Shown here one piece after another: positions 7,894 to 41,249 of a stretch of DNA of 64,000 bases. Below the pieces are notes generated by a model. It did no database searches and was not told the DNA's origin. It was given only the letters and a program-made list of their open reading frames with translations. Positions within the stretch are counted from its first letter, which is position 1. Each line of letters begins with the position of its first letter. A program made the translations under genes and the position numbers. The DNA is from Lacticaseibacillus mingshuiensis (GTDB lineage Bacteria; Bacillota; Bacilli; Lactobacillales; Lactobacillaceae): NCBI RefSeq assembly GCF_016861785.1, contig NZ_BOLS01000003.1, positions 123,593-187,592 on the forward strand. Direction: 5' to 3'.

Positions 7894-8188
7894 GGGTGCG
7901 GAGCCGAGCGTTTAGGGGTGGGCAGATAGTTCGGCCTGGGCGGTTGATGGCGTTCTTAGCCATCGAACGACTGGGACGACTATCTGTCCCACCCCTGCTC
8001 GGCGAAGCCCAACTGAGGGTGCGGAGGCCCGCGAGATGGTGGGGCAGCTAACTTGGCTTGGATGCTTGAGGCGCTCTTCGCCTCGAGTACACAAGACAGT
8101 TAGATGTCCCCGCCATGCGGGCCGAAGCCCAACTGAGGGGGCAGAGCCGAGCGTTTAGGGGTGGGCAGAGAGTTCGGCCTGGGCAGCA
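7894..8188 (+). repeat. Nested-hairpin intergenic repeat, locus A (two units plus a truncated third)
   Basis: The border GGGTGCGGAG recurs at 7894, 8017 and, as GGGGGCAGAG, at 8137 (periods 123 and 120). Unit 1 folds as GCCGAGC, GGGGTGGG and CAGATAGT against ACTATCTG, CCCACCCC and GCTCGGC, with apical stem GATGGC / GCCATC. Unit 2 folds with different arms: GGCCCGC / GCGGGCC, GGGG / CCCC, and apical GAGGCG / CGCCTC. Unit 3 repeats the left half of unit 1 and breaks off. Nothing here is coding. Confidence 0.85.
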
Positions 8189-8285
8189 CGTTCCCCCGCA
8201 CAATTTCCGCGCGCCAGTTTTCTCAATTCTGACCCCCTACCCCCCCTTTTCTCTGCTAAGCTCAAAGCAGAAAAGAGGAATCCCA

Positions 8286-8906
8286 ATGCCAAGACCCACG
8301 CCTCCACGCAATCACAGCGGCTTGATCACCTTGCTGTGGTGTCTACTGCAAGGAACAAATATTTTTATCGCAGCTATTGCCGCCCAGACCGCCGGAATTA
8401 TGACCACAGAATTCCTGAACCCTGCGATGGTCAGCACCTTTTTGCTGTTTTACCTGACCGGGCGGACACTCAACTATGGCCTCATTCACCTGCTGGGCTA
8501 TCACGCGGCGGCGGCGCTCGACGACATTGGCGGCAGCGCGTCCAGTCGCCCGAGCGTCTCACTACCAGATTTTCAGCGGAGCAGCACCCATTTCAAACAC
8601 ATCTATCATCAGCGGGCAAAAGGGCACCAGCTGCTTTATCAGACTGGCTTCATCCTGATGGAGAGCGGCGTGACCTGGGCCACCACCGCGCTATTCAATC
8701 ATTTTTTCCCCGCCGGCAGCGCCCGGATCTGGGTGTGGCTCGGGTGCTGGCTCATCGTGCTGATCGCCTGGACGATCGGGTATGAGACCTATTTTCCAAA
8801 AGTCTTCCGGCTCAACGTGCTGATGACGGAGCACGGCCAACCGGTCTTCATTCGCCGCGGGGTGCCCCTGCCGCGCATCCCCGACAACATGCGCGCGGAC
8901 GACTGA
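8286..8906 (+). CDS. Putative integral membrane protein, unknown function
   Basis: A 206-residue protein with about four hydrophobic segments (residues 14-36, 45-70, 118-140 and 148-166) and a soluble C-terminal tail. The start at 8286 follows AAAAGAGGAA; the longer open frame upstream runs through the hairpin-repeat array and is not credible as coding. It stands alone between the array and a bidirectional terminator. No family was recognised. Confidence 0.6.
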   Translation: MPRPTPPRNHSGLITLLWCLLQGTNIFIAAIAAQTAGIMTTEFLNPAMVSTFLLFYLTGRTLNYGLIHLLGYHAAAALDDIGGSASSRPSVSLPDFQRSSTHFKHIYHQRAKGHQLLYQTGFILMESGVTWATTALFNHFFPAGSARIWVWLGCWLIVLIAWTIGYETYFPKVFRLNVLMTEHGQPVFIRRGVPLPRIPDNMRADD

Positions 8907-8919
8907 CCTAGCTGAACGC

Positions 8920-8964
8920 AAAAAGGCGCCGCACTCCCTCAATCAAGGGAATGTGGCGCCTTTT
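8920..8964. terminator. Bidirectional terminator
   Basis: Perfect stem AAAAGGCGCC / GGCGCCTTTT between the convergent membrane-protein and phosphoketolase genes. Confidence 0.9.
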
Positions 8965-8973
8965 GCACGCGAG

Positions 8974-11343
8974 TTACTTGATTGGCTTCCAGGTCCAGTT
9001 CAGGACTTCAGGAATATCTTCGCCGGTCTCGCGAATATAATCGTAGTGATATTGAAGCGTGTCATCCATTTTCTGCACAAAGCCCGCGGCCTTCTGCGCG
9101 AAACTTGGGACATGCAAGATAATGTCCTTGGCCAAGTGGAAGCGGTCGAGCTCGTTGAGCACCCGCATGTCAAACGGCGTGGTGATCGCGCCTTCTTCGC
9201 GGAACCCATGGACATAGACGTCGCGGTTGTGGCGGTCAAAGAAGATATCGCGAATCAGGTCCTCGAAGCCATGGAAGGCGAAGAAGACTGGCTTGTCCGC
9301 GGTGAAGTACTGGTCAAAGACCTCATCGCTCAGCCCACGCGGATCACTCTTCTTCAGTTTCAACAGGTCCAAGACGTTGACAAAGCGAATCTTCAGCTCT
9401 GGGAAGTTGTCATGGAGGATGTCGATCGCGGCGAGGCTTTCGAGGTTTGGCTCGGTGCCGGCTGCCGCCAAAACAACGTCTGGTTCAACCCCATCATCCG
9501 TCGATGCCCAGTCGATGCGCTTCAGGCCGTTATTGGCCAGGACCGTCGCCTCTTCGATGGAATAGAACTGCGGCCGCGGTTGCTTTGATGTGATCAGAAG
9601 GTTGATCGTATTTTCACTGGAAAAGACTTTCGGCGAGATCGCCAACAGGGAGTTCGCATCCGCTGGGAGATATTCGCGAATGTATTCGCCCTTCTTTTCC
9701 GCCAAATGGGTGAGGACACCCGGATCCATATGGGTGTAACCATTGTGATCCTGCTGGAAGGAGGTCGACGTCGACACGACGTTCAGCGATGGATACGGCT
9801 TGTGCCACTTCTGCTCATGTGCTTCACGCAGCCACTTGAAATGCTGGGTGAGCATCGAATCGACCACGCGCAGGAAGGCTTCATAGGACGTGAAGACGCC
9901 GTGGCGGCCCGTCAGCGTGTAGCCTTCAAGAAAGCCTTCCGCCTGATGTTCGGACAGCTGCGAGTCGATGATTCGGCCACTTGCCGCCATGTCTTCATCG
10001 GAGCCATTCGTTGAAATGCCTTCTAACCACTGACGGTCAGTGGTCTCGAACAAGCCATACAGGCGGTTGGACATGGTCTCATCCGGCCCGAACACGCGAA
10101 AGTTATGCGCGTTGAGCTTGATCAGGTCACGCAGGTAATCCGACCAAATGATCATATCCTGCTTGACGTTTTTCCCATGCTCCGTGTTGTCCAGCGCGTA
10201 TTGCTTATAGTCCGGCAACACCAGCGGCTTCGCGTTCAAGCCCATGTTGGTGATCGGGTTGGCGGTCATCCGCTTGGCCCCTTTTGGCGTCAACGCCTTC
10301 AGTTCCGGCTTCAGCACACCATTTTCATCAAACAACTCTTCTGGCTTGTAGGACTTGAGCCAAGCGACCAGCTCATCCGCATGGGTCATATCGTCGCGCT
10401 TGACCGGAATTGGCACCTGATGCGCGCGGAACGAACCTTCGATCTTCTCGCCGTTGAATTCCTTCGGGCCCGTCCAGCCCTTAGGTGTGCGCACGATCAA
10501 CACCGGCCAATGCGGCATGGTCGCATCATGTGTCTCGCGGGCATGCTTTTGAATCGACTTGATCTCTTCGATGATCGTATCGAGCGTCTTGGCCATTTCC
10601 GGACTAAGTTTCTCCGGATCGTCGCCTTCGACAAAATACGGATGCCAGCCCATGCCTTCATAATACTTAGTCAGATCCGCATCGGATTTGCGCGACAAGA
10701 TCGTCGGATTTGAGATCTTGAACCCGTTCATGTGCACGATCGGCAACACAGCGCCATCCGTGATGGGATTGATGAACGTGTTGGAGAACCAGCTGGTCGC
10801 CAGCGGCCCCGTTTCACTTTCGCCATCCCCGATCACCGTGGCCGCAATGACCTCAGGGTTGTCCAAGATTGCGCCGGTCGCATGGCTCAGCGCATAACCC
10901 AGCTCGCCGCCTTCATGAATGGAGCCAGGAATCTGCGCATTGGCATGAGACGCCGCACCACCTGGAAAACTGAAGCGCTTGAACAGCAACCTCATACCCG
11001 TCTCGTTTTGCGGCATTTCCGGATAGGCCTCAGAGTACGTGCCATCCAAATAAGCATTGGAGATCATGACCTGACCACCGTGACCCGGGCCTTCAATATA
11101 AAACATATCCAGGTCGTACTTGTTGATCACGCGGTTGAGATGCGCGTAGATGAAGTTTTGGCCGGCAATGGTGCCCCAGTGGCCCAGCGGATTGAATTTC
11201 ACATCGCTTGATTGAAGTGGCCGCTTCAACAGCGGGTTATCACGCAAGTAAAGTTGGCCAACGGAGATATAGTTCGCCGCGCGCCAGTATGCGTTCAGTT
11301 TGGCAAAGTAGGCTGTGGAATCAAAATCTTTGATAGCTGCCAT
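8974..11343 (-). CDS. xfp: Xylulose-5-phosphate/fructose-6-phosphate phosphoketolase
   Basis: A 789-residue thiamine-diphosphate enzyme of full family length. It carries the signature [12 protein letters not shown] and the cofactor motif GDGESETGP. It cleaves xylulose 5-phosphate (and often fructose 6-phosphate) with phosphate to acetyl phosphate plus a triose or tetrose phosphate, the key step of heterolactic pentose metabolism in the cytoplasm. It is monocistronic. The upstream region has an extended -10 (TGCTACACT on the minus strand, 11377-11385) and a TAAGC / GCTTA inverted repeat at 11391-11406. No cre box was seen. Confidence 0.97.
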
Positions 11344-11376
11344 GACGTAATCCCTGCTTTCTTAATTGTTGACTTC

Positions 11377-11406
11377 AGTGTAGCACAAAATAAGCAAGTC
11401 TGCTTA
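11377..11406 (-). promoter_or_regulatory. Probable phosphoketolase promoter with adjacent inverted repeat
   Basis: On the minus strand, TGCTACACT forms an extended -10. The inverted repeat TAAGC-AAGTCT-GCTTA (11391-11406) lies where a -35 would be, so a bound protein there could control the promoter. No regulator can be named. Confidence 0.35.
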
Positions 11407-11587
11407 ACAATACTTACAACAACTTATTGCGATTTGTTGGTCACCCTTAGTCTAGCAACTCGGCCGCGCCGACCCAAACAATGTGTCTCGAGCAATCAGA
11501 TTTTTGTAAAAGTTGACCCGCCGCGCCCCTTCACGGTGTTAAAATAATCACAAGGGGTTCGACCCCGGTTCATAAGGAGGCGGCGAC

Positions 11588-11716
11588 ATGACGAAAAGTC
11601 AACGATTGACAGCACTCGGCGGCATCTTGATCGGGGTGTGCGCCACGCTACTCGTTCAGTCTTGGCTCGACCAAGTCGTGGTGATTCATGACGATCGCCG
11701 ACCGGCCCAGCCATAG
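11588..11716 (+). CDS. Small single-span membrane protein
   Basis: A 42-residue protein starting MTKSQRLTALGG, with one hydrophobic segment (residues 7-26) and a charged C-terminus (HDDRRP). A strong AAGGAGGCGG lies a few bases before the ATG, which is the main evidence that it is translated. The next small gene starts 27 bp after its stop, forming a two-gene unit. Too short for family recognition. Confidence 0.5.
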   Translation: MTKSQRLTALGGILIGVCATLLVQSWLDQVVVIHDDRRPAQP

Positions 11717-11743
11717 TTTCAGTTCGCAAAGGAGTGGAGATCC

Positions 11744-11917
11744 ATGAGACTAACATTTTTCGAATGGTTGATCGCTGCATTTGCACTTATCGCGTTGATC
11801 GCGCTGATCGCGATCGGCGCCTATATTAGCGCCATCGTCGTCGCCCTACTAATGGTGGGCGCGATCTTGATCGACCGTGACCCGCGCAACGATCTTCGCG
11901 GCAAGCATTTGATCTAA
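11744..11917 (+). CDS. Small membrane protein, two transmembrane segments
   Basis: A 57-residue, very hydrophobic protein (MRLTFFEWLIAAF...). A near-continuous apolar stretch at residues 8-43, broken by GAYIS, suggests a hairpin of two membrane spans, with a charged tail (DRDPRNDLRGK) on the cytoplasmic side. AAAGGAGTGG precedes the ATG. It is probably co-transcribed with the 42-residue protein before it and shares a bidirectional terminator with rarA. Function unknown. Confidence 0.55.
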   Translation: MRLTFFEWLIAAFALIALIALIAIGAYISAIVVALLMVGAILIDRDPRNDLRGKHLI

Positions 11918-11983
11918 CTAGACAAAGACGACGCCTTGCTCGGACAACAGACTGAGGTCTTACTCCGACCGCGCGTCCCTATC

Positions 11984-12027
11984 AAAAAAGTCCGCAGTTG
12001 GCCAAAATTGGCTTTCTGCGGACTTTT
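11984..12027. terminator. Bidirectional terminator
   Basis: Stem AAAAGTCCGCAG / CTGCGGACTTTT between the small membrane genes and the convergent rarA. Confidence 0.9.
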
Positions 12028-12046
12028 GTATTGCTTGCTTTGCGGC

Positions 12047-13369
12047 TTACTGGTTGTCATGTTCGGCATGCCAGGCCTTGATCTGGTCCAGCCGGGCCTT
12101 CACGCGTGCCTCACTGCCCTGATCCGTGGGGTGATAATAGGTGCGACCTTGCAAATTGTCCGGCATGGTCTGCATATTAGTCAGCTTATCGGCGCTGTTA
12201 TGTGCATACTGATAATCCTTGCCATAGCCGAGGTCCTTCATCAGCCCCGTCACACCGTTTCTGATCTGCAGGGGCACCGGCTCCGCGAGCGTTTCCGTCG
12301 CATCTTTTTTTGCCGATTCGTAGGCGGTATACAAGGTATTCGATTTCGGCGCCATACTCAAATAGGTCACCGCATGCGTCAGGTGCACACTGCACTCGGG
12401 CATCCCGATGAACTGGCAGGCCTGAAAAACGGCGATCGCGATCTCCAAGGCGCGGCTGTCGGCCATGCCGATGTCTTCCGAGGCAAAACGCACAAGCCGC
12501 CGTGCGATATACAGCGGGTCTTCCCCTGTTTCCAGCATCCGCGCCAGCCAGTATATGGCCGCGTCGACGTCTGAATTGCGCATCGATTTGTGCAACGCAG
12601 AGATCAGATTGTAGTGCTCCTCACCGTTTTTGTCGTACAGCAGCGCCTTTTTCGTGAGCAACTGGCCCACGACCGCAGCCGTTAGCGTGATCGGCTCACC
12701 GTCGCTTTGATCGGCGTTCGTTACCGCCATTTCCAGCGTGTTCAGCGCGATGCGGGCATCCCCGTTGGCAAAATCGGTCATGCGTTCAAGCAGCGCCTCG
12801 CTGACCTGGATCGTTTGCGAGCCATAACCGCGGGGGTCGCTAAGGGTCTGGTGCAACACCCGCACGAGGTCTTGCGTCGTCAGGGGCTGAAGCACGAACA
12901 CCCGCGTCCGCGACAGCAGCGCGGCGTTCACCTCAAATGAAGGATTTTCCGTCGTCGCCCCGATCAAGATGATCGCCCCGCGCTCCACATACGGCAGAAA
13001 GGCATCCTGCTGAGCCTTATTGAAGCGATGAATCTCGTCGACAAAGACGATGGTTTTTTGCCCGAGCTCGCGGTTGGAGGCGGCTTCTTCCATCACCACC
13101 TTGATCTCCTTGATGCCGGCGGTGACCGCCGAAAATGTGACGAATTGCGCCCGGGTGCGGCGCGCGATGATCTGCGCGAGTGTGGTCTTTCCAACACCAG
13201 GCGGCCCCCAAAAGATCATCGAAGGCACCTCGTCATTTTCGATCACGCTGGTCAACACTTTGCCCGGCCCCAGCAAATGACTTTGGCCGACAAATTCTTC
13301 CAACGTTTGTGGCCGCATCCGGTCTGCCAGTGGCTGAAACTGGCCGGGCTGATCAAATAAAGAGGCCAT
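12047..13369 (-). CDS. rarA: Replication-associated recombination protein A (RarA/MgsA ATPase)
   Basis: A 440-residue AAA+ ATPase of the clamp-loader clade, acting at stalled replication forks. Visible motifs are Walker A GPPGVGKT (residues 55-62) and Walker [10 protein letters not shown]. The C-terminal half carries the usual tetramerisation region. I set the start at 13369, behind AAGGAAGTGAG; an open extension to 13444 enters a hairpin-repeat element and is not expected to be translated. The gene is monocistronic, with repeat locus B immediately upstream. Confidence 0.95.
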
Positions 13370-13399
13370 GCCGCTCACTTCCTTTGTTGCGGGCCTGCT

Positions 13400-13546
13400 A
13401 TCCCGCGGGCCTGCGCATCCTTTTAGTTGAGCTCCGGCCCGCATAGTGGGTCCATCTAACTGGCTCTTGCACTCGAGGCCTAGTGCGCCTCAAGCGCAAG
13501 AGCCAAGTTAGCTGACCCACCATCCCGCGGGCCTGCGCATCCTTTT
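13400..13546. repeat. Nested-hairpin intergenic repeat, locus B
   Basis: A single unit flanked by two copies of a 25-bp direct repeat (13400-13424 and 13522-13546; core GGGCCTGCGCATCC), period 122. The arm GTGGGTC pairs with GACCCAC, CATCTAACT roughly with AGTTAGCTG, and apical GGCTCTTGC with GCAAGAGCC. It lies in the divergent gap between rarA and the 108-residue protein gene. Confidence 0.85.
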
Positions 13547-13582
13547 CTTCATAATACCATGACAACTCCTTGTTGGCGGGGG

Positions 13583-13593
13583 TATGCTACACT
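13583..13593 (+). promoter_or_regulatory. Extended -10 promoter of the unknown/GNAT operon
   Basis: TATGCTACACT contains an extended -10 (TG-C-TACACT) 27 bp before the ATG at 13620. The same string recurs before other genes in this window. No clear -35 was seen. Confidence 0.4.
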
Positions 13594-13619
13594 TAAGAAA
13601 AGCGAAATGAGGTGCAAGG

Positions 13620-13946
13620 ATGACTGATACAAAAGTACTGGCAAGTTTTCCAAGCGGCGAGTTCGCGGCGTTTTCCACCGCAAAGATGTCGTATTTTTTG
13701 CCCATGCGTGCGGACATGACCCGCAGTGAGATCGAACAATTCTTCGGCGAGGACGCAAAATTCGTGGCGCTGACTCCGATGCCGACGGTCGAACTCCATT
13801 TGCCCGACACCAAAGTCCAGATCGCACACCCTGGCGACATCATCGCCCATTTTATCAACGGCAAGTATAAAGTGATCTCCGAAGAATACTATAACAAAAA
13901 TTTCAACGCGCCGATCGTCGACAAAGACGACCATGGCATGATCTGA
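13620..13946 (+). CDS. Protein of unknown function, 108 residues
   Basis: A soluble protein (MTDTKVLASFPSGEF...) with mixed alpha/beta character and an acidic C-terminus (VDKDDHGMI). GAGGTG precedes the ATG. It lies eight bases before an acetyltransferase gene and shares its promoter and terminator, so the two probably form an operon. I do not recognise a family, and no catalytic motif is evident. Confidence 0.65.
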   Translation: MTDTKVLASFPSGEFAAFSTAKMSYFLPMRADMTRSEIEQFFGEDAKFVALTPMPTVELHLPDTKVQIAHPGDIIAHFINGKYKVISEEYYNKNFNAPIVDKDDHGMI

Positions 13947-13954
13947 GGCGTCCC

Positions 13955-14527
13955 ATGACTCGTTTTGAAAAATACCACCCGCTTTTATCCGCCCACTACA
14001 CCATGGACTGGCTGACAATGGCCAAGCTCAAGGATGTGTTTGCCCTGCGCAATGATCCGCTGGTCGCCGCCATTTCGGGCCGCGAGCGCGACAGTAGCAT
14101 CGAGGCCACCGCCCATTACGTCAATCAGTCGATGCGGCTCGTCATGGCGGACCGCGCGTTGCTCTATGGCGTGACTGCGCGCGATGACCGCAGTTTCTGC
14201 GGCAGTTTTTGCCTGTGGAATTTCAGCGAAAACAAGACGCAGGCGCAGATTCGCTTCGAGGTCCTCGCCGCCCAAGCGAGTCGCCCTGTGATGGCTGAAG
14301 TGCTGCCGCGGATGCTGGGCTTCGCCTTTTTCGAGCTCGGGGTCACTCAGGTCTATGCCCTGTTGCCGGAAACCGCCACAGCGGATGTGGCCCTGCTGAA
14401 GGCAAACCACTTCACGGCAACCTCGACCGGCCGGACGCGCACAATGCCAGACGGGCAAAGCGTGCCGCTGCTCAAATTGACATTGGCCGCAGATACGGTC
14501 AAAAATGACCCGCGGTATCAATTCTAG
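13955..14527 (+). CDS. GNAT-family N-acetyltransferase (RimJ/RimL-like)
   Basis: A 190-residue protein with the general layout of RimJ/RimL-type acetyltransferases, which transfer acetyl from acetyl-CoA to protein N-termini or small amines. Features are the core FCGSFCLWNF, a strand-helix region around QAQIRFEVLA, and a C-terminal FFELGVTQVYALLPE typical of the fold. The usual R/Q-x-x-G-x-A acetyl-CoA loop is not clean, so substrate and activity are uncertain. It is the second gene of a two-gene operon ending in a strong terminator. Confidence 0.75.
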   Translation: MTRFEKYHPLLSAHYTMDWLTMAKLKDVFALRNDPLVAAISGRERDSSIEATAHYVNQSMRLVMADRALLYGVTARDDRSFCGSFCLWNFSENKTQAQIRFEVLAAQASRPVMAEVLPRMLGFAFFELGVTQVYALLPETATADVALLKANHFTATSTGRTRTMPDGQSVPLLKLTLAADTVKNDPRYQF

Positions 14528-14535
14528 TTCAGCCA

Positions 14536-14577
14536 CAAAAATGGCGCCTCCACCCAGTGAAGACGCCATTTTTTTGT
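14536..14577. terminator. Bidirectional terminator
   Basis: Stem AAATGGCG / CGCCATTT with A- and T-runs on either side, between the convergent GNAT and purine-permease genes. Confidence 0.9.
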
Positions 14578-14586
14578 GCCGATTTT

Positions 14587-18640: not shown

Positions 18641-18671
18641 AGGGTGCGGAGCCCAACTGGAAAAGGGTGCG
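18641..18671. repeat. Solo border of the nested-hairpin repeat, locus G
   Basis: AGGGTGCGGAGCCCAACTG is followed closely by a second AGGGTGCG. These are the two conserved borders of the hairpin elements with the long hairpin missing between them. It begins a few bases after the ddl stop codon and runs into the ddl terminator. Confidence 0.7.
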
Positions 18672-18697
18672 CCGGCTCGCAAGCCGGCGCGCCTTTC
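18669..18697 (+). terminator. ddl terminator
   Basis: Perfect stem GCGCCGGC / GCCGGCGC with a short T-containing tail (GCCTTTCC), 31 bp after the stop codon. Confidence 0.65.
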
Positions 18698-25970: not shown

Positions 25971-26242
25971 GCCCCGCTTTGCACCCTGTTGAGTTGGGCG
26001 CCGCGGGCCAGGTCTGAGACAGATAATCGGCCCAGCCACTCGCTGGCCAAGTGCGCCAGCATGCGTCTAGGCCGAACTATCTGTTCAGACCTAAACGCCC
26101 CGCTTTGCACCCTGTTTAGCTGGGCGCCGCGCGGCAGGCCTGAGACAGATAGTCGGCCCAGCCACTTGCTGGCCAAGTGCGCCAGCATGCGTCTAGGCCG
26201 AACTATCTGTTCAGACCTAAACGCCCCGCTTTGCACCCTGTT
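25971..26242. repeat. Nested-hairpin intergenic repeat, locus C (two tandem units)
   Basis: The border GCCCCGCTTTGCACCCTGTT occurs three times (25971, 26097, 26223) with an exact 126-bp period, enclosing two nearly identical hairpins. Arms: GGTCTGA with TCAGACC, CAGATA with TATCTG, CGGCC with GGCCG, and apical GCTGG with CCAGC. The last border overlaps the final codons and stop of the AraC-type gene (ends at 26217). Apart from this array the gap between the AraC and GH2 genes holds nothing I can identify. Confidence 0.9.
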
Positions 26243-29998: not shown

Positions 29999-30167
29999 AT
30001 TTGGTTCATCCGTGCGCAGCCCCCCAAAAATCAGGGCCGGCCACGACAAAGAGGCCCCGAAAGGCCCCATTTTTAACTTTATTCGATTACGTGACTGCAG
30101 TGCCCTATGTGACCGCCAGCATGCGACCAAACTGGCGGGACCCTTTTCACCTTGGCGGGTAACGGCG

Positions 30168-30239
30168 ATGAAACTGTCGCTACCTCTAGTCACTATAGTA
30201 GTAATGGTGACCGTCGTGGCTTTATACCACTTGAACTAA
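30168..30239 (+). CDS. Possible 23-residue hydrophobic peptide
   Basis: A frame of 23 codons, mostly Leu, Val, Thr and Ile with a single basic residue near the N-terminus and an HLN end, would make a single membrane span. The size and character resemble type I toxin peptides, but the ribosome binding site is poor (GGCGGGT) and no antisense RNA promoter is clear. The frame is open further upstream, so it may be chance. Low confidence. Confidence 0.22.
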   Translation: MKLSLPLVTIVVMVTVVALYHLN

Positions 30240-30565
30240 GTCAGCGGACCTCGCCCAAGTGGCCCCGGGAAAAGCTGATGATGCTCGGAACCCGGCGCAC
30301 CGGGTGGATCTCCGAAAAATTGTACAGGAGAGCAGTAGGTTAGCAAGGCCTACACCTGCAATCGAGAATTCTACTTTATTTTAGATAGTAAGCGGTTTCT
30401 TGTCAACAATCTGAACCGCTTGCCTCAAAATTGCAAGCGCCACAAGAACCGCGCCATAACGCGGTTCCAGGCCGCCTACAGACGGTCACGCGTCCCAGTT
30501 TGGTCAATCGTTCAATTTATTGGCGAATCGCCAGCCCAATTTGGCTTTTGTATGACCAATGTGTC
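30240..30565. other. Intergenic stretch with an inverted repeat, no gene
   Basis: The clearest structure is AAGCGGTT-N16-AACCGCTT (30391-30422), which could be an operator or a hairpin. A small stem CCCGG / CCGGG lies near 30295. No coding region with a ribosome binding site was seen. Confidence 0.4.
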
Positions 30566-32423: not shown

Positions 32424-32580
32424 GAGTCGATTTCCTTTCTTTGCCATCACTGTCTAAGAACGAGTTACGAATCGTCTTGCGCTTCTATTTTGCACGGATC
32501 TGCCGCTCAGTCAAAGTGAAATAGAAAAATTTGGCACAGCTGGCGACGATTTTTGCGGATGTCTCGTCTGTCCAAGCTAC

Positions 32581-32738
32581 CCACTCAGACCTGAACGCCC
32601 CGCTCCGCATCCTGCTTAGTTGAGCTTCGCCGCGCAGGGGTGGAACATCCAACTGTCTCGTGCACTCGAGGCGAAAACCGCCTCAAGCGCCCGAGCCAAG
32701 TTGGCTGCCCACCCCTCCCGCCCCGCTCCGCATCCTGC
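32581..32738. repeat. Nested-hairpin intergenic repeat, locus D
   Basis: The border GCCCCGCTCCGCATCCTGC occurs at 32597 and 32720 (period 123) around one hairpin: AGGGGTGG with CCACCCCT, TCCAACT with AGTTGGC, and apical GAGGCG with CGCCTC. The stretch just to the left (CTCAGACCTGAACG) is the right end of a lost neighbouring unit of the locus C type. It fills the gap between the metallophosphoesterase promoter and the terminator of the substrate-binding protein gene. Confidence 0.85.
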
Positions 32739-34352: not shown

Positions 34353-34459
34353 CAAGTGATTGGACTCGAAACGCCACGAACCGGCCACATTCTTCACCAT
34401 TTTCACATCGTGGCCTAATTTTCATAAGCCCTTAACCATTAACGAATAAATCTGTAATT

Positions 34460-34493: not shown

Positions 34494-34512
34494 GTTTCTC
34501 ATATTCGGGGTG

Positions 34513-35982
34513 TCAGTCGGCTGTGCCGTTGTCTGCGGCCGCCCGATATTCGCGAGGCGACATGCCGGTCTGTTGTTTGAAAAGTTTGTAGAAATAGCTT
34601 GGCGTCTGGTAGCCGACGCGTTCTGCGATCTGATTGACGTCCTCGCCCGAGTTGCGCAATAGGTCGATGGCGATGCTCATCCGCCAGTCATTCAGATACT
34701 GAGAAAAGCTACGGCCGACCTCCTGTTTGAACAATTGGCCTAGGTAAACCGCGTTCAAATGGAGCTCATCCGCGACCTCCGCCAAGGTCAGCGGTTCGCC
34801 GTAGCGTTCCTGGATCAGCCGGCGCATGGCCAGCACATTGCGCGAGTAACGGCGATCGCTTTCCTGAGCGGCGCGCTGGGCGATGTCGGCCAGAATCTCG
34901 GTCAGCTTGGTCACCGTCTGCGCCTGGTTGATGGCGTTGATCGCCGCGGGTTTGCGCTCGCTGGCTGTGCCTTTTTCGCTGATCACCAGCAGGACGATCA
35001 TCGCGAATTGGCGGGTGAAGGCTACGGTGGCGTTGAGTTCCTTGAGTGTTTCGAGCTGCTCAACGAGCCATTTCTTGAAGGCCACCGGATCCAGCGGGCC
35101 AAGCGTTTCGCGCAGCTCGGAAAAACCGGGCAGTGTCGGCATCGTCTCGGTTTCCTCGGGCCTCGGCAGCCGGCGCAGGCCCGCATTGGTCTCGAAGAAA
35201 TACTGCCGGGCGATCTCCCCGCGCATGGTGTGATAGGCCTCGGTCAAGGTGGTCATATTCGACACCGTTGGCCCGATCAATTCCGGCCGGCGCGTCGAGG
35301 AGATCGGCTGCGGCGCTTCATTGATGAAGGCATTGAGCTGATTGTCATCCCCTTGAAACAGGATGATGAAGTCCTGGCCCTCACGGAAAAAGCCAGGGAC
35401 CGCCGCCTGTTCCTGCAAAAAATCTACCAGGTCCGTCGGCGGCAGTGGATTCAGGACCGCGATCAAGCGCACCGGCGCCGCGGGATTGGTGAAGACGATC
35501 TCAAGTCTTTTCAACAGGTCGTGCGCACTGCCGGGGTCGGTGCCGGCCACCAGCGCGCGCATTTCGGCCTGAGCCGCCAGCGTTGCGTTGTGATCGCTGG
35601 CCTGCCGCTCGTCGATGCGCTTGAGTGCCGCCTCGAGCGCCGTCACCAATTCCTCGGTGTCGACGGGCTTGCTGAGGTAATTGACCGCGTGCTGCTGCAG
35701 GCCCGCGCGCACGTAATCAAAGTCGGCGTAACCGGAGATCACGATCAGTTCCATGTCCGGCTGCAATTTTTTTGCCTTGGCCACAAAGGTCGGACCGTCC
35801 AGCTCAGGCATGTTCATGTCTGACAGCAAGATATCCACCGGATTCTCAGCCAACCAGTCGAGCGCCTTGAGCGGATTTTGCTCGGTCTTCACGATGGTCA
35901 GGCCGAGGCGCGCCCAGTCGATCAATTTCGGCAGACCGCGCAATAACATGTATTCGTCATCAACGATCATTACTTTTTTCAT
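34513..35982 (-). CDS. Response regulator, YesN/AraC type
   Basis: A 489-residue regulator. The receiver domain (about 1-120) has phospho-acceptor Asp55 in LLSDMNMPELDG. A long linker follows, and a C-terminal AraC double helix-turn-helix (about 385-485, with LTLAEVADELHLNAVYLGQLF and ending GMSPREYR). It overlaps the kinase gene by 23 bp. In Firmicutes such pairs sense external saccharides and activate neighbouring sugar-ABC and glycosidase genes, which fits the adjacent binding protein and GH38 genes. The target is inferred from position. Confidence 0.92.
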   Translation of the reverse strand: MKKVMIVDDEYMLLRGLPKLIDWARLGLTIVKTEQNPLKALDWLAENPVDILLSDMNMPELDGPTFVAKAKKLQPDMELIVISGYADFDYVRAGLQQHAVNYLSKPVDTEELVTALEAALKRIDERQASDHNATLAAQAEMRALVAGTDPGSAHDLLKRLEIVFTNPAAPVRLIAVLNPLPPTDLVDFLQEQAAVPGFFREGQDFIILFQGDDNQLNAFINEAPQPISSTRRPELIGPTVSNMTTLTEAYHTMRGEIARQYFFETNAGLRRLPRPEETETMPTLPGFSELRETLGPLDPVAFKKWLVEQLETLKELNATVAFTRQFAMIVLLVISEKGTASERKPAAINAINQAQTVTKLTEILADIAQRAAQESDRRYSRNVLAMRRLIQERYGEPLTLAEVADELHLNAVYLGQLFKQEVGRSFSQYLNDWRMSIAIDLLRNSGEDVNQIAERVGYQTPSYFYKLFKQQTGMSPREYRAAADNGTAD

Positions 35983-37687
35983 CGTGGTCTCCTTTGTCGG
36001 CAGCGGGGTCGCGGAATTGAATCGTGGTCTGGACCCCGCTCAACCCGTCGCTGGTCATAAACATATTAAAGCTATCACCGAAATAATCGGCGAGTCGTGA
36101 ATAAACATTTTGAATACCGATCGACGTGCTCTGGTCCCCGGCCAGCGGCTCCTTCATCCGTTTGTTCAGGGTCTGGACCTCATCCAGCGCGAGCGGTTTG
36201 CCGTTATTGGCGATGCTGATGGTGATCAGGTCACCTTCTCGCCAGGACTTGATGCGAATCACGTTGTCGCCGCGCGAGAAGTCGACGCCATGCACGAAGT
36301 AATTTTCAACTAACGGCTGGAAGCTGAACTTCGGGATGCTCAGCGCCGCGATCGTCGGGTCCACCGTGATCTGGTAGGCCAAGCGGTCTGGAAAACGCAC
36401 CTGATACAGGAACACATACTTGTCGATGAAATCCAATTCGTGCTGAATCGTCGTCAGCGGCGAAAAATCGGTGTTGTTCCGCAGCAGGGCGGCAAAATTA
36501 TACACGACATTGGCCAGCTCCGGCTGATCGGCATCCAGCGCGGCCATGCGGATGTATTCCAAGGTGTTGGACATGAAATGCGGATTGATCTGCGCCTGTA
36601 GCGCCTTGATGTTGGCCTCTTGCTGGGCGATGCGCAACTGGTAGATCGTATAAATATATTGATCGATATCGCCGAGCATCCGGTTGATGCCATCCCCGAG
36701 CTCGCTGAGGTCGGATTGATCCACCGTGACCGGCACCCGCGCCTTGAGATCGCCATTGCCCACCGTTTTTACCGTGGCCAAGATCGTGTTGAGCTGGACC
36801 CGATACCGGCCAAACGTGACCCACAACAGCGCACTGAGCAGCGCCAGCACGAACAGCCCGAGCAAAGCGACCGACGCGACCCGCCAGAACATGAGGGCGC
36901 GCATGCCACTGCGGCTGACAACGAAGATCAAGGTAAACTCATTGGGCAGCTCCTTTTTCTCGACGGTGAAGTCGTGGAGCTTGCTGAAGTCGTCAAGTTT
37001 GGCGGCCTTGGTCGCCAGCGCGCGCTCATTTTTGTCCACTGAGCTGTCGCTAAAATGGTTGACCAACACGCCGCTATTATTGAGGACCAGCACCTGCAAA
37101 TGCGCCCGGGCGTCGATCGCGGCGAGCTGCTGATCCAGCGTGCTCCGATCATAATCGATGCCCAGGGTCCCATCGATCGTCGCGTCGGTCGGATTGATCA
37201 GGCTCGTGGAAAAATCGGGACTGATATTCTGGTTCGTGAGCAGCTGGCCCTCTTTTTTCTTCTGGGTGGCCACAAACACCTGACCCGCTTTGGCCTTCGT
37301 CACATTCAGCGTCAGCGTCAGCCGCTTGACCTCGGGATGCTGCATCATGAACGTCGAGGATTCGTTGGACCAATTGTAATACTGGCCCTCGCCTTGACTC
37401 TGGGTGATCGCGTATTGCGCGTAGGCGGCCGGCGAAAGGGCAAAATACTGCGCGATATTCGTCAACCGGCGGCCATCTGAGGTGATATTTGCGGCGTAGT
37501 CATCGGCGATCGTTTGGTAGCGGGTCACCGTTTCGGTCGCGCGCTGGGTCGCCATGTTTTCCGCTTGTTCCAGCGACGATTGGTAGCTGCTGACCGAGCT
37601 GACGATGCCAACGCCGGTGATGCCTAAGCCCAAAACGAGCAGCACCACGGTATAGATCTGCATCAATCGTCGAAAATTGAGTTTCAT
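35960..37687 (-). CDS. Sensor histidine kinase, YesM type
   Basis: A 575-residue membrane kinase. It has an N-terminal span (about 8-30), an extracellular sensor domain (about 33-265), a second span (about 268-292), a HAMP region, then the His_kinase motif INPHFMSNTLEYIR with phospho-His370. The C-terminal ATPase domain has SIANNGKPL and SIGIQNVYSRL. It would phosphorylate the overlapping response regulator. It lies between the orphan binding protein and the GH38 gene, so glycan sensing is likely. AGGAGGCG precedes the ATG. Confidence 0.93.
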   Translation of the reverse strand: MKLNFRRLMQIYTVVLLVLGLGITGVGIVSSVSSYQSSLEQAENMATQRATETVTRYQTIADDYAANITSDGRRLTNIAQYFALSPAAYAQYAITQSQGEGQYYNWSNESSTFMMQHPEVKRLTLTLNVTKAKAGQVFVATQKKKEGQLLTNQNISPDFSTSLINPTDATIDGTLGIDYDRSTLDQQLAAIDARAHLQVLVLNNSGVLVNHFSDSSVDKNERALATKAAKLDDFSKLHDFTVEKKELPNEFTLIFVVSRSGMRALMFWRVASVALLGLFVLALLSALLWVTFGRYRVQLNTILATVKTVGNGDLKARVPVTVDQSDLSELGDGINRMLGDIDQYIYTIYQLRIAQQEANIKALQAQINPHFMSNTLEYIRMAALDADQPELANVVYNFAALLRNNTDFSPLTTIQHELDFIDKYVFLYQVRFPDRLAYQITVDPTIAALSIPKFSFQPLVENYFVHGVDFSRGDNVIRIKSWREGDLITISIANNGKPLALDEVQTLNKRMKEPLAGDQSTSIGIQNVYSRLADYFGDSFNMFMTSDGLSGVQTTIQFRDPAADKGDHDEKSNDR

Positions 37688-37722
37688 CTCGGTCGCCTCC
37701 TGTCCCCTCAGTTTACCACACC

Positions 37723-37768
37723 AAAAGACGAGCCTCGCCGCGAGATTTCGCGGCGGAGCCCGTCTTTT
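37723..37768 (-). terminator. Terminator of GH38 (first copy)
   Basis: Long stem AAAAGACG-a-GCCTCGCCGCG / CGCGGCGGAGC-c-CGTCTTTT. It is separated from the GH38 stop by repeat locus E, so the repeat would be transcribed in the 3' untranslated region. Confidence 0.85.
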
Positions 37769-37802
37769 GAGCGTGCAGTCAAAACGTGTTTCTTCTATTT
37801 AA

Positions 37803-37919
37803 ATTGGGATGCAGCGCAGGGGTGAGGCACCTAGCTGTCTCGTGTGCCAGATGGCTGAGTACGCCATCTGACCCTCGAGCCAAGTTACCCGCCCCACCAT
37901 CCCGCGGGCCTCCGCATCC
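37803..37919. repeat. Nested-hairpin intergenic repeat, locus E
   Basis: A single unit between GGGATGC (left) and CTCCGCATCCT (right, abutting the GH38 stop codon). Outer arm GGGGTGAGG pairs with CCGCCCCACC, and the apical stem CCAGATGGC pairs with GCCATCTG. It lies in the 3' untranslated region of the mannosidase gene, before its terminator. Confidence 0.8.
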
Positions 37920-40900
37920 TTACTTGAAAGTAACTTTGACTGTCTGTATTTCAAATGGCTTAAACGGCACGGTCACCGACCGACCGTCTTCGCTGATGGT
38001 CAGTGGGGTCTGCTCATTTTCCAGCAGGTCGCAGATGGCGGCGCTGGCCAGCGGTTTGGCAAAGGTCCAGGTCGCCTGGCTTGCGGCGTCTGCGAACTCA
38101 TAGCCGCGCAGGATGGTGGCATCGCTGTCCTCGGCGACTTTGATGGTATCGATCAGGACGTCATCCTTGTCGCAGGTGACAAACGGTGCGGTCTCGCTGG
38201 CCGCATAGCCAGGCCAAACGATCGGCTGGTTGTTCAGCGCCAGCGCAGCCTGCATCGTGCCCGCTTGGACCCAGTCGCCGGCATGCGGCATCAAGGTGTA
38301 GGTGAAATGATCCGCGCCTGTGTCGGCTTCCGGATCCGGCATCGTCGGGCAGCGGTGCAGCGACAGGCCGAGATGCTGATAGGCGGCATCATAGCCGTAC
38401 TTCGCGTCGGTCAAAATACTCAGGCCATAGCCGCGATCGGAGAGATCCGCCCACAGCTGGGCCGGTACCTCGAATTTGGCCTGTTCCCAGGATGTATTCT
38501 TGTTGACCGGCCGTTTGAGGGTCCCGAACTGAATGTCATACGTCGCATTGTCGGCGTTCACATCCACCGCATTTTCGCTGCGCAACAGCATGTGGTCGTC
38601 GTGCCAGTCGAGGTCCGTTTCAACCGCAATCTGCGTGGTGCCATGCGTGAAGTGCCAGCGCTGGTCGATCAGCGACTGGCCGAAGCGACGAACGATGTGC
38701 AGGATATCCTCCAGCGGGCCGCGGCTTTCGATCGTTGCGCTGACGACCTCGCTGACCGGCCAGGACTTCGCGTGATACGTGCTGTCGATATTCCAGGCGT
38801 CGTATTCCGTCGGCAGATCCTGGTAGACGACGAGTTCATTGAGCTTGCCGCCCGCCGGCACGACCTCGCGCCCGGCGTGTTTGTCGATCAGGCTGGTGAT
38901 GGCAAAATTCGCATCGAACGTGACCGCTAGATCCGCGGTCTCAAACGACGTCCCAAGAGGCTCTTCTGCTGGCAGGGCCGCGGCCGCTTCAGTGCCAGTC
39001 GTGATCGTCGTCATGGAAAATGGGGCGGCGGCTGGTACCCGCACCAGCGCCCTTGCGTCGGCCAGATGCTGCACCGGCAGCGGCTTGCCCGCCACGCTGG
39101 CCGTTTGCGTCAGGCTCAGCGGTAAGACCACATCCATGTCGCGCGTCTCGCCCAGTGGGTTGTACAGCGTGATGGCATCCGTCTGGGCGGTCAGGTGATC
39201 CGTCGCAACAGCGGCCAGGATCTTGTCCAGCTCAGCAAAGCCCTTGGCGTAATCCTTGTCCGTTTGATCGTAGACTTCTTTGATCGAACTGCCAGGCAAA
39301 ACGTCGTGGAACTGGTTCATCATGGTGCGCTCCCAAATGTCATCGAGCGTTTCGTGATGGGCGGCCGCTCCCGGCACCGTGGCCAACAGCTTCTCGGTGG
39401 CGGACAAAAGCGCCTCAATGGCCCGGTTGTTGTGTTTATTTTTCGCAAGGCTTGTGAAGACGCCGCGGTGGAACTCGAAATACATTTCCCCCATCCAGGT
39501 CGGCACTTCGCCGGGATGTTCGGCGAGCTGCGCGGCCAGGTGGTCAAAGTATTCGGCCGCGCCGGCGTTTTTGATGCGCGGCATGCCGGCAATGCCCTGC
39601 TTGAACCGCTTGAGGTATTCCATCATCTCGGCAGTCGGGCCACCCCCGCCATCGCCCCAGCCGTATGCGACCAAAACGGAGTCGGAGACGTCTTTTTGCC
39701 GGTACTTGTCCCAGGTCTTCTTGAGGACGTTCGGGGTGACGAGGCCGGAATAGGTGGAGTACCACTCGTTGAGGCTCCAGAATTCGGAGATGGTGTTGAT
39801 GATGTGGGCAACGACTTTGGATCCATCGATGCCTTGCCAGTAAAAACTGGTGTCCGGCCAGATATTCGTATCGTTCCAGGCGAGCTTGGTGGTCATGAAA
39901 TAATCCACGCCGGCCTTTTTCATGATCTGCGGCAAGGCGCCGGTATAGCCAAACGCATCCGGCAGCCAGAGCACGCGCGAGTCGAGGTCAAATTCCTTCT
40001 TGAAGAACCGCTTGCCGTACAAGATCTGGCGGACCAGCGACTCCCCGGATGGCAGGTTGGTGTCAGGCTCGACCCACATGGCCCCCTCTGGCTCCCAGCG
40101 GCCGTCCTTGACCGCCTGCTTGATCTGGGCATACTCCTCGGGGTATTTTTCCTTGATCCACTTGTAGAGCTGCGGTGAGCTGTGCATGAACTGAAAATCG
40201 GGATACTGCTTCATCAGATTCAGCACGGTCGCCCAGCTGCGGTTGGCCTTTTCAACGGTCTGGCGAATCGGCCACAGCCACGCCATATCGATATGCGTGT
40301 GCCCGATGGCGTAGATCGTCCCGTTTTTCGCATCCGGCGCCTCGTCGAGTTGGCTGTGCAGGAGGTCAGACGCCTGGCGCAAGCTCTGCTCGTAGTCATC
40401 CGAATACGGCGCGCGCAGGTCGACAAGATTGGCCGCCGCCTCCAGCGCGCGGTGGTAGCGATTGTCCAAATTATCGTCGCTGTCGACATTTTGCCAGCAG
40501 CCCAGATACGTCATGAAGTCAAAATAGGTCGTCCAGCTCTGTTCATCCAGCCAAAACGCCTCGATGTCGACGGGGAACTGCTTGTCGTCGCGCCCAGCAT
40601 AGATCTGCAGGCGCAGGTTGATCTGATCGTTGACCACCCAGCTCGGCTCAACGCGCGTGGTGCGGTGATTGACGTCCAAGCCTTGGACCAACTCATCGCC
40701 GATAAATAATTTCATCTGCGGATTACGACTATTGTCATCGTTGTACCCGCGCGTCGCGATCGACAGCGCATAATGGCGGCTTGCATCGTAATCGGGCAGC
40801 GGCACCGTGGCGGTCATATCGTAATTACCATCGGCCTTGCCAAAATAGTCCCCGGCATGATAGTCGCGGGTGGGCATATCGCCGCCAACCGTTGCCTTGG

Positions 40901-40982
40901 AAAAAGGATAATGTGCGCGCTGAATGTTGTCCTTCAACGCTTCCGCGATGCGGGAGATTCGTTTAAAACTCGCTTCGTTCAT
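37920..40982 (-). CDS. GH38 alpha-mannosidase (first copy)
   Basis: A 1020-residue family-38 enzyme of the long (eukaryotic Man2C1-like) type. An N-terminal beta domain (1-215) precedes the catalytic domain: zinc-site GHTHIDMAW with His228, His230 and Asp232, and nucleophile Asp342 in LPDAFGYTGALPQI. A middle helical bundle and C-terminal beta-sandwiches follow. It removes alpha-mannosyl residues from N-glycan cores or mannans and is a Zn-dependent retaining enzyme. No signal peptide, so cytoplasmic. CTGGAGGC precedes the ATG. It differs strongly from the second GH38 at 48.4 kb. Confidence 0.93.
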   Translation of the reverse strand: MNEASFKRISRIAEALKDNIQRAHYPFSKATVGGDMPTRDYHAGDYFGKADGNYDMTATVPLPDYDASRHYALSIATRGYNDDNSRNPQMKLFIGDELVQGLDVNHRTTRVEPSWVVNDQINLRLQIYAGRDDKQFPVDIEAFWLDEQSWTTYFDFMTYLGCWQNVDSDDNLDNRYHRALEAAANLVDLRAPYSDDYEQSLRQASDLLHSQLDEAPDAKNGTIYAIGHTHIDMAWLWPIRQTVEKANRSWATVLNLMKQYPDFQFMHSSPQLYKWIKEKYPEEYAQIKQAVKDGRWEPEGAMWVEPDTNLPSGESLVRQILYGKRFFKKEFDLDSRVLWLPDAFGYTGALPQIMKKAGVDYFMTTKLAWNDTNIWPDTSFYWQGIDGSKVVAHIINTISEFWSLNEWYSTYSGLVTPNVLKKTWDKYRQKDVSDSVLVAYGWGDGGGGPTAEMMEYLKRFKQGIAGMPRIKNAGAAEYFDHLAAQLAEHPGEVPTWMGEMYFEFHRGVFTSLAKNKHNNRAIEALLSATEKLLATVPGAAAHHETLDDIWERTMMNQFHDVLPGSSIKEVYDQTDKDYAKGFAELDKILAAVATDHLTAQTDAITLYNPLGETRDMDVVLPLSLTQTASVAGKPLPVQHLADARALVRVPAAAPFSMTTITTGTEAAAALPAEEPLGTSFETADLAVTFDANFAITSLIDKHAGREVVPAGGKLNELVVYQDLPTEYDAWNIDSTYHAKSWPVSEVVSATIESRGPLEDILHIVRRFGQSLIDQRWHFTHGTTQIAVETDLDWHDDHMLLRSENAVDVNADNATYDIQFGTLKRPVNKNTSWEQAKFEVPAQLWADLSDRGYGLSILTDAKYGYDAAYQHLGLSLHRCPTMPDPEADTGADHFTYTLMPHAGDWVQAGTMQAALALNNQPIVWPGYAASETAPFVTCDKDDVLIDTIKVAEDSDATILRGYEFADAASQATWTFAKPLASAAICDLLENEQTPLTISEDGRSVTVPFKPFEIQTVKVTFK

Positions 40983-41098
40983 ACATTGCCTCCAGGAATA
41001 TGGAAAATTGAGATGTGTGTGATGTGTGGGTAGTGGTTATAGGTTTGGAAAGTGCGGTATGCGGGACGGTTTCAGGGCCGGATCGTCTAGCCGACCGA

Positions 41099-41249
41099 CC
41101 ATCCCGCGAGCCTCCGCACCCTTTTCTTAGTCGGGCTCCGCCGAGCAGGTCTGAGACGTCTAGCTGGCGTGGGCACTCGAGGCGAAGTGCGCCTCAAGCG
41201 CCCACGCCAGACTAGCCGCTCAGACCTAAGCGCTCGGCTCCGCACCCTC
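41099..41249. repeat. Nested-hairpin intergenic repeat, locus F
   Basis: Borders CCTCCGCACCCTTTT (left) and GGCTCCGCACCCTC (right) enclose one hairpin. GGTCTGAG pairs with CAGACC, GTCTAG with CTAGC, TGGCGTGGGC with GCCCACGCCA, and apical GAGGCG with CGCCTC. It fills the gap between the GH38 promoter and the terminator of the second binding-protein gene. Confidence 0.87.

Follow-up and report, generated by a model that had tools for sequence, protein, structure and literature searches.

An apparently undescribed family of intergenic hairpin repeats of about 120 bases in lactic acid bacteria

Hairpin arrays in the gene gaps of the window

The window, a stretch of 64,000 nucleotides from Lacticaseibacillus mingshuiensis, holds seven intergenic loci at which the original prediction had seen a common border and, at six of them, long nested hairpins. 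All seven are present in the sequence. Hairpin elements lie at six, including two-unit arrays at 7893-8146 (-) and 25977-26239 (+), and the seventh is a linker and border without a hairpin (Table 1). The family is far more numerous than these loci suggest: the border CTCCGCAYCCT occurs exactly 93 times in the 2.76 Mb genome, against 2 occurrences of a reversed control, and a covariance model with which further copies were sought matched all of the scored candidates, at least 150 in number.

Table 1. Members of the repeat family in the window, with predicted folding energies of the element strand and its complement
Position	Strand	Feature	Element (kcal/mol)	Complement (kcal/mol)	Remarks
7893..8026	-	Full unit (border, linker, hairpin, border), 3' of two-unit array	-65.6	-77.3	
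8016..8146	-	Full unit, 5' of the 8-kb two-unit array	-61.2	-74.1	3' border shared with next unit; hairpin 0.94-0.95 like two sister-array units
8136..8183	-	5'-truncated remnant (3' arm and border) at array 5' end			By eye
13411..13543	+	Full unit			Sister slot: border, spacer and linker unchanged, other hairpin (hairpin identity 0.62; flanks 94.6/97.0%)
18641..18674	-	Hairpin-less scar: border, spacer, linker fused to border			3 nt past ddl stop codon; sister counterpart has two units
25977..26113	+	Full unit of two-unit array	-63.6	-84.0	Locus-specific border CTTTGCACCCT
26103..26239	+	Second unit of the 26-kb array	-64.1	-84.0	Hairpin 95% like first
32570..32613	+	5'-truncated remnant and border, upstream of full unit			By eye; sister slot of the 32.6-kb locus holds only a truncated remnant
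32603..32736	+	Full unit	-57.7	-73.2	
37792..37920	+	Single unit, degenerate 5' border and linker	-49.4	-63.7	R1 62.1 bits; no unit found at sister site
41078..41122	+	5'-truncated remnant and border			By eye
41112..41248	+	Full unit; highest predicted stability in the window		-92.3	

Tandem units follow the order spacer, linker AGTYGGGCTNCG, stem of about 95 nt and border CTCCGCAYCCT, with a period of 120-127 nt and the border common to successive units. The gap between border and linker, predicted to be 2-4 bases, turned out to span 0-7 nt, mostly 5 or 2, in the 175 parsed units, from this genome and its sister, for which a border could be recognised upstream. Position 6 of the linker covaries with position 8 of the border (G-C in 179, A-T in 9, other in 5; n=193), which identifies the border as the 3' strand of the helix that closes its own unit at the base; this helix is short and imperfect. 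In both genomes units run head to tail, with no mixed-strand array among 112. Like orientation is nevertheless not a family rule, as L049, L135, L139 and L140, four loci from genomes other than these two, have opposed neighbours a few nucleotides apart. Upstream of the leading full unit, 62 of 80 arrays carry a border. Far more units are truncated at the 5' side (25) than at the 3' side (4), the 5'-truncated remnants sitting at the 5' ends of arrays, and hairpin-less scars are rare (three exact linker-border fusions and one with a single mismatch). The array at 25977-26239 consists of near-identical tandem neighbours, as does one at L030. No significant gradient of age was seen from one end of the arrays to the other (first 99.2, last 103.1, p 0.11).

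As predicted, the family is dispersed and intergenic: by our own, crude gene caller, none of the 106 arrays of the two genomes extends more than 60 nt into a called gene. Of 395 sampled Lactobacillales genomes, 83 carry related elements, spread over 24 of 80 genera, a patchy presence that requires gain or much loss. Loci were retrieved through the border, which favours 3' ends in the sample. Within one other bacterial family, 1-5 matches were obtained in each of 18 out of 105 genomes. Border types are genome-specific among the relatives compared, three of which (G006, G011, G014) carry at least 32 copies each.

Conservation of the fold and turnover of hairpins

The original prediction had read the compensatory changes between arms as pointing to the folded form, and the alignments bear this out: 92.0% of cells are paired, versus 73.9% after shuffling. 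In the genome studied here, double-changed cells number 625 versus 205 in shuffles, and 31 of 38 pairs contain them. Across species, double compensatory change is found in all 38 modelled pairs (score 0.771 versus 0.182 shuffled); of the five measures of covariation, the one that counts further pair types (116 against 109) was matched by 25 of 500 shuffles. Linkage also tracks the fold. Among 83 units of this genome, paired arms lying 16-99 columns apart are linked at z 16-32, while neighbouring arms reach only z 1.6-10.4.

We carried out the comparison of orthologous gaps that had been proposed, using a sister species that is 90-96% identical. Slots persist and hairpins differ. Unit number differs in 10 of 19 orthologous arrays, and most orthologous hairpins show an identity either of 0.92-1.00 or close to the background of 0.71, with some in between (0.81 at 26 kb). 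Members drawn at random from the two genomes are some 71% identical. Within arrays, 40% of pairs share the spacer exactly versus 1.8% between arrays, and 43% share the linker versus 11%, yet hairpins are no closer within arrays (0.687) than between them (0.708; 99 within-array pairs, hairpins at least 0.85 alike excluded). The spacer exactly matches the 3' flank in 13% of cases, versus 3.5% for other arrays.

The reading we favour, to which we give close to an even chance, is that these are Lactobacillales-wide arrays of intergenic hairpins of about 120 nt that spread and turn over as folded single-stranded DNA, with one preferred strand. The bottom-strand hairpin would be extruded or exposed at replication, and a trans-acting factor would read the hairpin base, formed by the genome-specific linker and border. 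Other hairpins would be copied in at borders already present, and slippage between flanking CTNCG repeats would remove hairpins. Host recombination at short common flanks might suffice in place of a dedicated factor.

Similar turnover could arise without mobility, if old tandem repeats underwent only unequal crossing-over and ectopic gene conversion, with compensation supplied by quasi-palindrome template switching. That hairpins differ while local borders and linkers stay would suit this account, as would the existence of one-arm exchanges and the near-identity of tandem neighbours at 25977-26239 and L030. However, template switching would erase specific mispairs, and these are conserved; the bias toward one strand is kept outside the genus, and the patchy presence among genera calls for gain or much loss. 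We therefore consider an immobile origin very unlikely. Exchange of whole helices was examined in 20 pairs of units from this genome with inner identity of at least 0.95: the outer helix had changed on both arms in 2, on one arm in 3 and on neither in 15. The two pairs with both arms changed have one member in common. A both-arm swap as a single event is unsupported.

Strand preference and the nature of the pairing

Predicted folding is strongly asymmetric. With RNA parameters, all but two of 194 units (192) fold more stably on the complement strand, by a mean of 13 kcal/mol, so the strand on which the elements were originally read is the weaker-folding one; DNA parameters give 193 of 194. Units from other genomes show the same bias in 57 of 59 cases, as do 31 of 35 matches at 20 further loci, 18 of them outside the genus. 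Four mispairs are conserved on the element strand, A·C (190/194), T·C (154/194), C·A (164/192) and A·C (143/192), which on the complement strand become G·T, G·A, T·G and G·T, the pairs through which the predicted bias arises. Array strand agrees with the majority gene strand in 43 cases and opposes it in 34 (p 0.36); for the G-rich strand the counts are 60 and 46 (p 0.21). Neither difference is significant, leaving orientation by replication strand unsupported.

Such a bias could instead mark a structured RNA, transcribed from the complement strand either in 3' untranslated regions or as a free transcript, whose dsRNA-like hairpin would stabilise, process or regulate neighbouring messages. The complement is the strand predicted to be more stable, and the conservation of G·U and G·A pairs on it would fit an RNA too. 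In the cross-species alignment A·C exceeds G·U on the element strand (77 to 27), a wobble excess on the complement that is also seen in the 29 best pairs (38 to 13) and in the first 83 units (A·C 68 versus G·U 39). In the larger set of 194 units no significant excess is left: over 26 pairs, beyond the conserved wobble positions, the counts are 74 for G·T and 96 for A·C (p 0.107), which favours DNA over RNA pairing, and transcription class has no effect on these counts. In a very small control of eight local tRNA genes, by contrast, 56 acceptor pairs include 6 G·U and 0 A·C.

Gene context bears on the same question. Several elements had been placed in 3' untranslated regions, possibly as an RNA module. 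Of the 50 arrays that face a convergent gene, 34 place the border no more than 6 nt from that gene's stop codon, which speaks for the RNA account. RNA function in 3' untranslated regions is not favoured, given the mixed orientation of arrays and genes (36 (+,+), 28 (-,-), 22 (+,-), 20 (-,+)), and divergent gaps hold 20 of the 106 arrays. With our own finder, none of the 34 stop-abutting arrays contained a terminator (a stem followed by a T run), versus 149 of 325 control gene ends, which rules out the arrays as intrinsic terminators and also counts against a structured RNA. On balance we regard the RNA account as unlikely. On the reading we favour, the elements form a new palindromic repeat family, and their recombination substrate is likely the folded single strand.

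If DNA folding is what selection sees, the family would document with unusual clarity how strand-specific secondary structure of DNA acts in natural genomes, with 38 of 38 modelled pairs covarying across species, at least 150 copies in one genome and an order that includes food bacteria. Such elements could wrongly pass for regulatory RNAs.

Candidate helpers and known repeat families

A REP-type Y1 transposase had been suggested as helper. PF01797 is found in 13 of 30 genomes of the genus, this one included, but is absent from the high-copy genomes G006, G011 and G014, and thus a Y1 transposase is not the general helper. An IS200/IS605 derivative fares no better, as G006 and G011 have neither PF01797 nor PF07282, while G000 and G021 have both. 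Reverse transcriptases, whether group II-like or retron, are likewise rejected, PF00078 being present in 11 of 30 genomes and absent from G000, G021, G006 and G011. In G006 and G011, then, all three enzymes (Y1 transposase, reverse transcriptase, TnpB) are missing. The integron integrase model TIGR02249 scored above cut-off in 0 of 30 genomes, all of which gave weaker tyrosine recombinase matches. No helper gene was found among Y1, reverse transcriptase, TnpB and IntI, the classes searched, and so we infer mobility from dispersal and turnover alone. Together, the covariance model, the slots seen as occupied, scarred or replaced between the sister species, and the genomes that carry no known HUH or reverse transcriptase enzyme make the spread of palindromic repeats without RAYT testable.

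A further possibility is that of a classical MITE, in which a resident IS transposase would mobilise a non-autonomous DNA transposon through its ends. The dispersed intergenic copies and genome-specific border types fit this account; 21 of 111 units in this genome have a match of at least 0.95 among the other units sampled, the same array counted, and the sharing of spacers within arrays resembles possible target duplication. Yet the ends are poor inverted repeats, units retain local border and linker variants, random members of the two sister genomes are not the near-identical copies that a burst leaves, and no parent element was seen among the enzyme classes searched. We hold this to be the least probable of the explanations weighed here.

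No Rfam family matched in the window at gathering score. By E-value, nine loci of relatives gave six weak matches, none at cut-off. A weak RefB11 match in L046 lay outside the model's units and below its cut-off. Plasmid or phage carriage is unsupported, blastn with one unit per collection returning no match at E 1e-3. In the literature, where most subscription papers were beyond our reach, we recognised no paper describing this family, which appears to have gone undescribed until now.

Most EFAR (Enterococcus faecalis repeat) elements are about 170 bp long with two independent stem-loops; the family is mosaic, with many sequence types, and stem-loops serve as targets. EFAR, for which PMC3733652 cites De Gregorio 2009 and which it classes with MITEs, is a complex, palindromic, intergenic family in the same order. 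The elements described here differ, by description only, in their one nested, strand-biased stem. Efa-1, also of E. faecalis (163 bp, 65 copies), is likewise an intergenic structured repeat, and by its description in PMC2267715 it is set apart by its adjacent pair of stem-loops. ERIC, bcr1, RUP and BOX are interspersed repeats of similar size, several of them structured; the combination of strand bias, covariation and tandem organisation is not in those of their descriptions that we compared, in parts of PMC3733652, PMC2229807 and PMC2267715. REPs, as PMC3733652 has them, are palindromes of 20-40 bp with a GTAG/CGTC tag; REP/BIME systems with RAYT resemble our family in their many clustered intergenic palindromes and a possible single-stranded route, whereas units here measure about 120 nt and their linker and border consensus holds no such tag. 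Several high-copy genomes also have no Y1 enzyme.

Integron attC sites carry R' and R'' boxes (GTTRRRY and RYYYAAC). They also combine variable sequence with conserved structure, preferential folding of one strand and occurrence in arrays (PMC11641012). By prediction, our elements share the strand-preferential folding and the conservation of structure over sequence. They could belong to a cassette-free integron-like system, in which the strand-specific hairpins themselves would be mobile cassettes, captured serially at conserved intergenic slots by a recombinase reading structure and a genome-specific base, and diversified with pairing kept. We judge this distinctly unlikely. Unlike attC, the family comes with no integron integrase, gene cassettes or conserved R'/R'' boxes, and some genomes have opposed neighbours. 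The linker GTTGGGC of this genome fits GTTRRRY, but the linkers of relatives, read by eye, include GTTGCGC, GTCGAGC and AACGTGC, and the border is without RYYYAAC.

Anatomy and copy number of the hairpin units

All seven intergenic loci named in the original prediction are present in the window. Six of them hold nested hairpins as described, while the seventh lacks one (see table). The exact border occurs 47 + 46 times in the 2.76 Mb L. mingshuiensis genome, compared with 1 + 1 occurrences of a reversed-pattern control. In 43 sequences from this genome (the window and 42 fetched loci), we found 88 border-to-border stretches, two of which run longer and overlap units that are in the count already; in the remaining 86 the borders are spaced 120-127 nt apart. 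A covariance model trained on 83 of these 86 units matched all 150 candidates scored, taken from 1431 first-look candidates, so that the genome holds at least 150 copies.

Each unit runs from a spacer (0-7 nt) through the linker AGTYGGGCTNCG and a stem of ~95 nt to the border CTCCGCAYCCT, and successive units of one array share a border. Arrays comprise 1-5 units in this genome and that of the sister species. Because linker base 6 and border base 8 covary (G-C 179, A-T 9, other 5 among the 193 of 227 units that could be parsed in full), the border is no separate motif; linker and border together form the base of the hairpin. By eye, the two positions are C and G in other genomes (CTCCGCAGCCT with GTTGCGC). 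None of 112 arrays (65 own, 47 sister) mixes strands. At four loci from other genomes, opposite-strand units lie 4-28 nt apart; like orientation within arrays is no rule of the family.

L030 contains three near-identical units in tandem with the border TTCCGCACCCT, a case of recent tandem duplication. L212, from another Lactobacillales family, contains four model matches at 244-245-base spacing (scores 69.5-71.5), reflecting either blocks of two units each or an array in which every other unit went unreported because neighbours overlap.

Coordinates of individual features (L, fetched loci; G000, own genome; G021, sister-species genome; C, contigs)
Feature	Location	Strand	Basis
Hairpin-less site: linker and border only	window 18641-18674	minus	sequence
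Orthologous site with differing hairpin	window 13411-13543		
Opposed units, other genome	L049:1501-1785	both	model matches
Opposed units, other genome	L135:1392-1671	both	model matches
Opposed units, other genome	L139:15339-15636	both	model matches
Opposed units, other genome	L140:17543-17817	both	model matches
Near-identical tandem units	L030:3620-4011		
Four evenly spaced matches	L212:1976-2842		model matches
263-codon ORF	window 8115-8906		
Part of ORF retained by gene caller	window 8400-8906		gene caller
Y1 match close to TnpB match	G000 C2:75192-76716	minus	
Probable repeat of ~500 bases	window 30034-30533		
Match of this repeat, example	G000 C3:109684-110176		
Match of this repeat, example	G021 C23:61050-61549		
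Weak RefB11 match	L046:1260-1376		Rfam

Covariation and predicted folding of the paired arms

The arms had been described as differing between copies while staying paired, and such compensatory change is evident. Within the genome, both sides change in 31 of 38 pairs, paired cells make up 92.0% versus 73.9% in shuffles, and five of five measures lie above all 500 shuffles. Across species, in a set of 71 sequences (67 distinct) whose alignment to the model biases it towards structure, both sides change in 38 of 38 pairs, with 805 double-changed cells versus 221 in shuffles and a covariation score of 0.771 versus 0.182 shuffled; four of five measures exceed all shuffles, and the fifth (further pair types) is equalled or exceeded by 25 of 500. 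Shifting partners by 1-3 columns abolishes the signal in both comparisons, and arms paired across 16-99 columns are far more tightly linked than neighbouring arms of the same strand. Such covariation may arise through selection that maintains pairing or through exchange between folded copies. Among 20 own pairs whose inner parts are nearly identical, the outer helix had changed on both arms in 2, on one arm in 3 and on neither in 15, so that single-step helix exchange is hypothetical.

Predicted folding favours the complement (5'-AGGGTGCGGAG ... CCCAACT) of the strand originally read, which is thus the weaker-folding one, in 192/194 units with RNA parameters (mean 13.3 kcal/mol) and in 193/194 with DNA parameters (9.3 kcal/mol). 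The same bias is predicted for 8/8 units in the window, 57/59 units from other genomes and 31/35 matches of 20 further loci, 18 of them outside the genus. The complement is predicted to fold better because five conserved mispairs of the element strand (A·C in 190/194 distinct units, T·C in 154/194, C·A in 164/192, A·C in 143/192 and T·C in 85/193) are there G·T, G·A, T·G, G·T and G·A, types that a helix tolerates more readily.

The hairpins might instead belong to a structured RNA family. In an RNA-selected stem, the intermediates on the selected strand should be G·U far more often than A·C, and eight local tRNA genes, a very small control with 56 acceptor pairs in all, show G·U in 6 of these pairs and A·C in none. 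Over 26 well-paired positions in 194 units, cells on the element strand are Watson-Crick in 4683 cases, G·T in 74 and A·C in 96 (p 0.107), and no surrounding transcription class significantly affects the G·T to A·C balance in these units. Every orientation relative to genes is also represented: (+,+) 36, (-,-) 28, (+,-) 22 and (-,+) 20 among 106 arrays classified with a crude gene caller in own and sister loci, some orthologous and so non-independent. Since G·T is no commoner than A·C and every orientation occurs, DNA-level folding is more likely than RNA-level folding, though not proven. Speaking against it, wobble pairs are in excess on the complement both in the first 83 units (A·C 68 vs G·U 39 on the element strand) and in the cross-species alignment (77 vs 27). 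On balance, we regard an RNA family as rather improbable.

Array slots and their turnover

Of 50 arrays with a convergent gene on their 3' side, 34 have the border at most 6 nt from that gene's stop codon or overlapping its end; in the 56 arrays followed by a co-directional gene, the border precedes the called start by a median of 75-88 nt. The slot behind ddl can be traced by eye in 24 genomes (the window and 23 named records). By eye, the element begins within 5 nt of the ddl stop in Lacticaseibacillus yichunensis, daqingensis, kribbianus, camelliae, hegangensis, jixianensis and parakribbianus; the window retains a scar, and the other 16 mostly have an ordinary terminator-like hairpin instead. 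Model matches fall at the stop codon itself in three of the seven (daqingensis, kribbianus, hegangensis) and on a neighbouring or further unit in the remaining four. The arrays were rejected as terminators: our own finder placed one inside 0/34 stop-abutting arrays and beyond the array in 14/34, compared with 149/325 control gene ends and 31/53 left co-directional genes. An ORF that, going by its listed start, runs into the 8 kb array has no Pfam match.

The sister genome is 90-96% identical in five long matches to the 23.5-43 kb region of the window. Orthologous gaps, to which the original prediction had pointed, do differ: among the 19 of 65 own arrays with both flanks in fetched sister loci, counted units differ at 10. 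Orthologous hairpins are mostly either 0.92-1.00 identical or near the level of random members (median 0.71), with few intermediates (e.g. 0.81 at 26 kb). At one site the two species share border, spacer and linker and have different hairpins (0.62). After removal of pairs with hairpins at least 0.85 alike, spacers are shared exactly in 40% of pairs within arrays (99 pairs) versus 1.8% between arrays, and linkers in 43% versus 11%; hairpin likeness is 0.687 within and 0.708 between. The spacer equals the exact start of its own array's 3' flank in 13%, versus 3.5% for other arrays. Remnants are cut at the 5' side in 25 cases, each first in its array, and at the 3' side in 4, and in 62 of 80 arrays the first full unit is preceded by a border. 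Hairpin-less linker-border fusions occur at four places (three exact, one with one mismatch); five further two-mismatch matches are at chance level (~4).

Candidate mechanism, distribution and known relatives

We tentatively favour a reading that may well be correct, in which the folded bottom-strand hairpin, exposed while DNA is single-stranded, would be the substrate, a factor recognising the hairpin base would copy or move hairpins into existing border slots, and slippage between the CTNCG repeats at the foot of a hairpin would account for losses. The data establish the covariation, the predicted strand bias, the slots and the sister-species differences; that a factor acts, in which direction events run and that the route is single-stranded are what we infer. 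With opposed neighbours at four other loci, strand bias and array orientation are less closely linked; this slightly lowers our confidence both in this reading and in an integron-like one, and raises, by half as much, that in an RNA family and in a classical MITE. The integron-like reading is unlikely, and a classical MITE more doubtful still. An integron integrase scored over its cut-off in 0/30 genomes. The Y1 transposase suggested as helper is absent from two genomes with at least 32 matches each (G006 and G011), and RVT_1 and TnpB were rejected on their absence from the same two. The L. mingshuiensis genome has Y1 and TnpB, at one place in an IS200/IS605-like arrangement.

The first model matched 33/100 genomes including our own (26/30 of the genus and 7 others), and the cross-species model, scanned with stricter filters, at least 83/395 Lactobacillales genomes from 24/80 genera and seven families. 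One genus of 25 genomes gave 1 match, and another family 18/105 matching genomes with at most 5 matches each. Among ddl-region records, 11/76 named or partly named ones match: Secundilactobacillus silagincola and, in Lacticaseibacillus, the seven species with an element at ddl plus suilingensis, absianus and zhaodongensis. One unit used against each of the plasmid and phage collections found no match.

Interspersed palindromic repeats are a known kind of element. Within that kind the hairpin family appears to be new, and the literature searched held no recognised description of it. The closest named family of this order is probably EFAR, from Enterococci; Efa-1 is described as two adjacent stem-loops (PMC2267715). 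In one fetched locus RefB11 is weakly matched (30.3 bits, cut-off 54), close to an array and outside the model's units. The window also contains a stretch of ~500 bases with 88-96% identity to other places in its own and the sister genome, some over ~370 bases only; this is probably another repeat, unrelated to the hairpins.
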